The notes beneath the pieces were generated by a model. The model worked only from the letters and a program-made list of their open reading frames with translations. It was not told the origin of the DNA and ran no database searches. Below, piece by piece: positions 58,947 through 59,305 of a DNA stretch of 59,755 bases (positions are counted from its first letter, which is position 1; the number at the start of each line of letters is the position of its first letter). The stretch spans positions 1 through 59,755 of the forward strand of contig JAABTQ010000018.1 of the NCBI GenBank assembly GCA_011389745.1. The letters are read 5' to 3'. Made by a program: the position numbers and the translations under genes. Origin of the DNA: Desulfobacteraceae bacterium. GTDB lineage: Bacteria > Desulfobacterota > Desulfobacteria > Desulfobacterales > SKZT01.

Positions 58947-59019
58947 GCCGAGGTAGCTCAGTCGGTAGAGCAGGGGACTGAAAATCCCCGTGTCGGCAGT
59001 TCGATTCTGTCCCTCGGCA
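58947..59019 (+). tRNA. tRNA-Phe (anticodon GAA)
   Basis: The acceptor GCCGAGG (58947-58953) pairs with CCTCGGC (59012-59018), discriminator A at 59019, and CTC follows, so CCA is not encoded. The anticodon stem GGGGA/TCCCC (58973-58977, 58985-58989) holds loop CTGAAAA with anticodon GAA at 58980-58982. The D arm AGCTCAGTCGGTAGAGC is standard. Confidence 0.96.
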
Positions 59020-59034
59020 CTCAAAAAAATCAAG

Positions 59035-59067
59035 GGTTTACATCAAGTCGGTGTAAGCCTTTTTTTT
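59035..59067 (+). terminator. Rho-independent terminator of tRNA-Phe
   Basis: GGTTTACA (59035-59042) pairs with TGTAAGCC (59052-59059) with one G-U pair, followed by eight T residues at 59060-59067. It lies 15 bases after the tRNA. The MITE-like element begins ten bases beyond the T tract. Confidence 0.85.
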
Positions 59068-59076
59068 GTTTCATTT
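59068..59076. repeat. Left 9-bp target site duplication
   Basis: GTTTCATTT is identical to the right copy at 59297-59305, and each copy directly abuts one end of the terminal inverted repeats. This is the expected scar of transposition. Confidence 0.8.
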
Positions 59077-59296
59077 GAGTGTAACCTGTTTGTGTGAAGA
59101 GACTTGTGCTTAATTGTAGGTGCGAATTCATTCGCACAATGTGAACCCGGTTGTCCATTATAGAGTCTATGCCCGTCCCCCAGGAAAAAAGTTGCTGGGG
59201 GCCTCTAAGGAATTTATTGTAAATCCGTGCCGGATGTAAGTGCGAATGAATTCGCACTTACAGAAAAATCGGATTTCACACAAACAGGTTCCACTC
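59077..59296. mobile_element. MITE-like element, 220 bp, no coding capacity
   Basis: Terminal inverted repeats of 22 bp with one mismatch: left GAGTGTAACCTG... (59077-59098), right ...CAGGTTCCACTC (59275-59296); the inner 16 bases (AACCTGTTTGTGTGAA and its complement) are perfect. A 9-bp direct repeat flanks both ends. Inside, two palindromes of 18 bases (GTGCGAATTCATTCGCAC at 59120-59137 and its reverse complement at 59240-59257) face each other, and a central hairpin CCCCCAG/CTGGGGG (59177-59183, 59195-59201) is enclosed by TAGAG/CTCTA. No open frame. It was probably mobilised in trans by a transposase elsewhere. Confidence 0.8.
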
Positions 59297-59305
59297 GTTT
59301 CATTT
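59297..59305. repeat. Right 9-bp target site duplication
   Basis: GTTTCATTT, identical to 59068-59076, directly follows the right terminal inverted repeat. Confidence 0.8.

Follow-up and report, generated by a model that had tools for sequence, protein, structure and literature searches.

A GTAG-tagged REPIN inside a multicopy MITE downstream of the tRNA-Phe gene of a Desulfobacteraceae bacterium

Downstream of a tRNA-Phe gene in a Desulfobacteraceae bacterium lies a short non-coding element that is bounded like a transposon and filled with palindromes like an extragenic repeat. Which part of it is mobile, and how do the two kinds of sequence belong together? The window, i.e. the whole stretch of DNA that was analysed, comprises 59,755 nucleotides (contig JAABTQ010000018.1, assembly GCA_011389745.1). 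A first-pass annotation had read the element as a MITE that carries or spreads REP-like palindromes. For comparison we used above all a congener, the Desulfobacteraceae MAG CSSed162cmB_348, a fragmented metagenome assembly.

Site and anatomy of the window copy

The tRNA-Phe gene (58947-59020, plus strand; found by ARAGORN and Rfam) lies upstream of the insertion and is followed by an intrinsic terminator (59035-59067, plus strand), which consists of the stem GGTTTACA/TGTAAGCC and eight T and is kept in the congener. The left copy of a 9-bp target site duplication, GTTTCATTT (59068-59076), directly abuts the T-run of this terminator (59060-59067), so that the element itself starts 9 bases past it; the first-pass annotation had placed the insertion correctly by the terminator and counted ten bases. 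An identical GTTTCATTT borders the element on the right (59297-59305). Between them, the element (59077-59296) begins with a 22-bp terminal inverted repeat, GAGTGTAACCTGTTTGTGTGAA (59077-59098, plus strand), a 22-mer that forms the ends of every full copy, and closes with the corresponding repeat on the minus strand (59275-59296; reverse complement GAGTGGAACCTGTTTGTGTGAA), which has one mismatch to the left one.

Subterminal segments lead from the terminal repeats to a pair of REPs; in an alignment of 45 copies the left segment (59099-59115, plus strand) has a mean identity of 95.8%, and the right one is AGAAAAATCGGAT (59262-59274, plus strand). The first REP (59116-59137, plus strand) is composed of the tag GTAG and a hairpin with an 8-bp stem, GTGCGAAT-TC-ATTCGCAC, a sequence that is also found outside the element. 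The second REP (59240-59261, minus strand) has the inverse orientation, so that the two are arranged head to head. In the window copy the tag of the second REP reads GTAA, a decayed form of GTAG, which is the consensus of the 45 copies. Within the REPs, two 18-mers (59120-59137 and 59240-59257), each with an 8-bp stem and a 2-base loop, are mutual reverse complements. The spacer between the REPs (59138-59239, plus strand, approx. 102 bases) contains a central GC-rich hairpin, CCCCCAGGAAAAAAGTTGCTGGGGG (CCCCCAGG...CTGGGGG; 59177-59201, plus strand), recognised from sequence and folding, and a small second hairpin, ATCCG-TGC-CGGAT (59223-59235, plus strand), that forms in computed folds. Spacers fall into at least two subfamilies, and the apical hairpins are kept in both.

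As single-stranded DNA the 220 bases fold with -52.6 kcal/mol, compared with a mean of -21.1 kcal/mol for shuffled sequences (z -9.7). The element contains no open frame of 60 amino acids or more, and an Rfam search of the window returned three tRNAs only and no match to the element. Hence the first-pass description of a non-coding 220-bp element with a perfect 9-bp duplication and 22-bp terminal repeats differing at one position was base-exact, and the two mutually complementary palindromes with a GC-rich hairpin between them, as well as the proposed folding of a single strand (z -10.1 for RNA), are borne out. Further to the right, the flank at 59485-59755 matches, with 87% identity, an unrelated region of the congener (G002 C82) beside a gene reading like a HicB-type antitoxin. 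The stretch from the tRNA-Phe locus to the contig end thus contains a rearrangement junction.

Mobility of the whole unit

The window's genome (3.6 Mb in 80 contigs, fragmented) harbours 27 stretches of 95-223 bases that match the element with 85-100% identity. Most of them are full copies, the others being fragments, and three terminal repeats stand alone; approx. 40 further matches occur in the congener. Among the 45 full-length copies of the two genomes, 20 are flanked by perfect 9-bp duplications and six by 9-mers identical at 8 of 9 positions, while shuffled flanks give 0.5 perfect pairs. With this excess, and with 0.07 as the chance expectation of the 18-mer in the window, an origin of the pattern by chance was rejected. 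The flanking 9-mers vary from copy to copy, and the perfect duplications have the symmetric consensus AAATSATTT. Copies sit between open frames and none was found inside a long frame. The 220-base stretch therefore is a real MITE with about thirty copies in its own genome, as the first-pass annotation had proposed, and the genome-wide copies with different flanks that it suggested looking for are there.

Comparison with the congener points in the same direction. Its tRNA-Phe locus can be aligned up to the T-run and the first target bases and then runs on without the element. Four further sites were compared and synteny on both sides was found at one of them (L010/L223), where the congener again has no element. 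An empty site in a relative, the third check put forward by the first-pass annotation, is thus given at the tRNA-Phe locus as a locus free of the element but, owing to the non-syntenic right flank in the congener, not as a base-resolved single GTTTCATTT.

Since the 9-bp duplications are situated beyond the terminal repeats and vary by copy, it was the whole 220-bp unit that moved. This result bears on a view proposed for REP dimers of Anabaena variabilis and Halothiobacillus neapolitanus, in which the REPIN is the sole mobile unit and the terminal repeats are merely its preferred palindromic insertion target. PMC3733652 describes REP dimers as occurring regularly inside palindromes, with no REP-free palindromes in these two species; here too, no intact terminal-repeat shell without a REPIN was found in our searches. 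Duplications outside the terminal repeats contradict such a target, however, and so do the subterminal segments, which are conserved among copies. We consider this view very improbable. Two short elements of 61 bp (L269) and 44 bp (L091) were examined as possible REPIN-free shells and rejected, as both look like internal deletions.

The distribution of the element is narrow. When the whole element was searched for in 389 genomes of the order, full copies came from the window's genome and the congener only. The exact terminal repeat, searched in GTDB genomes, was found elsewhere only in the congener and in one archaeal MAG contig that looks misbinned; plasmids did not contain the terminal repeat, nor viral contigs the exact 22-base end. 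The contig in question, binned as a Methanomassiliicoccaceae archaeon and possibly misbinned, carries a MITE copy with a perfect 9-bp duplication (L097:3652-4032). Nested in this copy is a further inverted-repeat element (GTATCTGTTTAGCGCTTT...), whose apparent duplication measures 8 bp (GTGAAATC).

Nested insertions were also seen in the window's genome. Two of the 27 stretches (L021 and L027) together make up a single interrupted copy whose AAATCATTT flanks are intact; this copy (L021:1501-1877, G000 C19) is split by a GC-rich inverted-repeat sequence of approx. 140 bases that is flanked by GCTTCTAAG twice, and the related CCCCCTTTGAAAAAGGGGGATTTAGGGGG occurs near several other copies. Contigs G000 C30 (right end) and G000 C44 (left end) terminate at a MITE copy or just beyond it, as is expected of short-read assembly at repeats.

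REPs within and outside the MITE

What does the unit enclose? The core of the 45-copy consensus reads GTAG-GTGCGAAT-TC-ATTCGCAC, a 104-base spacer and an inverted REP, with the tags on the outside and the REPs head to head; GTAGGTGCGAATTCATTCGCAC is present in 43 of the 45 left REPs. REPs of the GTAG super-family have a GTAG tag, a stem of 6-13 bp and a short TY loop (PMC3733652). From position 59116 (GTAG) to position 59261 (decayed tag) the interior of the MITE is a REPIN, i.e. a head-to-head pair of GTAG-tagged REPs. With REPINs and GTAG-REP dimers as described in PMC3116915 and PMC3733652 it shares the GTAG tag, the 8-bp stem, the TY loop, the head-to-head pairing and the extragenic position, and also a structured spacer less conserved than the REPs and the presence of a RAYT (REP-associated tyrosine transposase), here in the congener. 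It differs from them in that 22-bp terminal repeats and 9-bp duplications bound the element and in that the window's genome is without a detectable RAYT.

The same REPs are also found free. Exact tagged REPs number 45 in the window's genome and 151 in the congener; the other 387 genomes of the order that were searched contain none. In the congener, 62 of the 151 lie in the examined neighbourhoods of MITE copies and approx. 89 beyond them. REPs outside the MITE occur there singly (L200), in a tandem array (L107) and in mixed arrays (L093); the array at L107:624-700 repeats the REP plus the first bases of the MITE spacer with a period of 50 bases. One congener locus, L267, contains a complete REP-spacer-REP core with the same spacer type, which begins with GTAG, ends with CTAC and directly adjoins unrelated DNA without a trace of subterminal segments or terminal repeats; it is the only complete free copy of the exact core that was seen. 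By itself, the core has a strong DNA fold (z -6.8).

Moreover, the terminal repeats enclose more than one interior. L271/L106 (L271:405-592) and L270 (L270:306-503), and in part L093 (L093:553-693), represent a second type of element, which shares the 22-bp ends but has a different interior. Its right REP is GGAG-tagged (GGAGTGCGAAAGTTGTACTTTCGC) and its left REP is degenerate and GTAG-like; this spacer and this GGAG-tagged REP are found again in the free hetero-pair at L206.

The congener furthermore possesses a RAYT gene (NCBIfam NF047646, 87.1 bits at a cut-off of 80), which is flanked by related REPs of the GGAG type and thus of another type than the GTAG REPs of this element. The gene (L221:1273-1815) is inserted between two genes that belong to what is probably a cobalamin pathway, and near-identical repeats with GGAG-type REPs on both sides give it the appearance of a REPtron-like unit. 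A RAYT/Y1 gene (PF01797) was not detected in the window's genome. REPtrons may be absent through deletion, as stated in PMC3733652.

These observations allow us to weigh a simpler reading, in which the element is an ordinary MITE with ancestral palindromes and free palindromes elsewhere are relics of decayed copies. The window's genome taken by itself would agree with it: nearly all REPs there lie inside copies, with four exact and one decayed palindrome outside, and truncated MITE copies are common. The congener does not fit, since its approx. 89 exact REPs beyond the MITE neighbourhoods, the core at L267 cut exactly at both REP tags, the REP arrays with other spacers (L093, L107), the second REP pair within the same terminal repeats and the RAYT gene all speak for an independent unit, as does the better conservation of the REPs compared with the terminal repeats. 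Relics of an ancestral interior are thus an unlikely explanation. The free occurrence of the REPs, together with their tag and head-to-head arrangement, agrees instead with the initial impression of REP-like palindromes carried by a MITE.

Conservation within the element is indeed uneven. Over the 45 copies, identity averages 99.8% and 98.9% for the two REPs, 93.9% and 96.2% for the terminal repeats and 87.4% for the spacer. Substitutions found in just one copy affect 9 of 1980 cells in the REPs, compared with 37 of 1980 in the terminal repeats (Fisher p 4e-5) and 86 of 6030 in the rest of the element (p 3e-4), p-values that are approximate because the copies are not strictly independent. The REPs are thus conserved in excess of the transposon ends. 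In Pseudomonas REPINs, too, the REPs are better conserved than the spacer (PMC3116915), and the pattern seen here resembles theirs. Short-read assembly could add to the uniformity of a high-copy REP sequence.

Excess conservation might also reflect a host function, the element being kept for a folded RNA or DNA that acts on neighbouring transcripts as terminator, mRNA stabiliser or gyrase/IHF site. A very stable RNA fold (-93.8 kcal/mol, z -10.1 versus shuffled), REPs that remain conserved after insertion and the roles known for REPs (PMC3733652) speak for such a function. On the other hand, the window copy lies downstream of a complete tRNA terminator, the orientation of neighbouring genes differs between copies, Rfam provides no match, and the sites are not shared with the congener where they were checked. 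In the consensus RNA structure four pairs are changed on both sides; as the covariation term is small and compensatory pairs are few, we do not claim an RNA function, and we regard maintenance by the host as a remote explanation.

Three MITE copies of the congener (L257:475-536, L265:476-537 and L266:358-419) share a palindromic insert of 62 bases, ACCCCATCAGATAACAT...GGGGT, whose position is precisely the loop of the REP beside the right end. Either these copies form a MITE subfamily that has one more arm, or a small element that targets REP loops has inserted into them.

Candidate mobilising enzyme and proposed dispersal of the nested elements

Which enzyme moves the outer unit? The IS256 family is characterised by a subterminal TGTAAA motif and A/T-rich 8-bp duplications (PMC7780238). 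The MITE resembles IS256/Mutator-like elements (ISCth4, PMC7780238) in part, with an A/T-rich duplication, ends of the type GAGxGT...TTGTGTxAA and TGTAAA in about half of the left ends, the others having TGTGAA. The ends of genuine IS256-family members from this order are GAGGGTGTTCAGAATTCTGTGTCA or TAGTGTAAAATAGATTGTGTAA, and the alignment of TAGTGTAAAATAGATTGTGTAA with the MITE end was beaten by only one of 5000 shuffles. In contrast to these elements, whose duplications in the same order measure 8 bp, the MITE generates 9 bp, and no transposase gene with these ends was found. PF00872 (IS256-type) genes occur in 29 of 146 genomes of the order and in neither the window's genome nor the congener nor the one other family member that was searched (G001). 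Because of the missing PF00872 genes and the 8-bp length of known duplications, we only lean towards an assignment of the terminal repeats, judged by their sequence, as IS256/Mutator-like ends. The transposase gene between paired 22-bp ends that the first-pass annotation had envisaged was sought in vain in the window's genome and among the matches listed in the congener. As a matching transposase did not turn up in the window's genome, the mobilising enzyme is one that we infer. The parent transposon may have been lost or may reside in an unsequenced strain, and a MITE does not require its presence in a given genome.

The reading that we favour, with a probability of roughly three in four, is a composite element: a REPIN nested in a MITE that has IS256/Mutator-like ends and is moved by a transposase supplied in trans. 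The outer module would be a non-autonomous DDE-type MITE, with 22-bp terminal inverted repeats, a 9-bp duplication and a preference for AAATSATTT, whose terminal repeats would be recognised by a trans-acting transposase, IS256/Mutator being its most likely type. The inner module would hitchhike on the MITE as a head-to-head pair of GTAG-tagged REPs around a structured spacer. For such a module, a RAYT, working on single-stranded DNA, suggests itself as the mover. In the congener, where these REPs also exist outside the MITE, they would spread independently of it, presumably in this way. In the window's genome, where no RAYT is detectable, the REPIN most likely spreads only as cargo of the MITE. 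Of the two orders of assembly, we infer the one in which a REPIN was inserted into an existing terminal-repeat shell.

The element combines known kinds of sequence and is not a new category. It resembles bacterial MITEs such as NEMIS, RUP, ERIC and MITEAba12 in being short and non-coding, in its terminal inverted repeats and target duplications, in its many intergenic copies and in its presumed mobilisation in trans, and is unlike them in carrying a complete GTAG-REP pair that also exists free in the congener. The closest precedents are the GTAG-15 dimers of A. variabilis and the CGTC-1 dimers of H. neapolitanus, in which a REP dimer likewise lies regularly within an inverted repeat (PMC3733652). 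In the available portion of that work they are described as insertions in palindromes, without a target duplication or an assignment to a transposon. Here, the enclosing unit demonstrably transposes, the same ends hold two REP pairs and the core exists free. With about even odds, then, the REPIN is the cargo of an unrelated DDE-type MITE in a genome where no RAYT was detected, at least two REP pairs have been enclosed by the same ends, and the near-invariant REPs point to a homogenising or selective process that acts on REPs independently of the MITE.

What such nesting would mean goes beyond this locus. To our knowledge, REPs and REPINs are thought to spread only via RAYT transposases. A REPIN that is bounded by DDE-transposon ends, the two units being found separately as well, would be a concrete second route of dispersal, one open to genomes without a RAYT. 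It provides a natural system in which the spread of a REPIN and that of a transposon can be told apart. As the REPs are conserved beyond the transposon ends, selection, conversion and RAYT activity become testable as causes by comparing REPs inside and outside the MITE.
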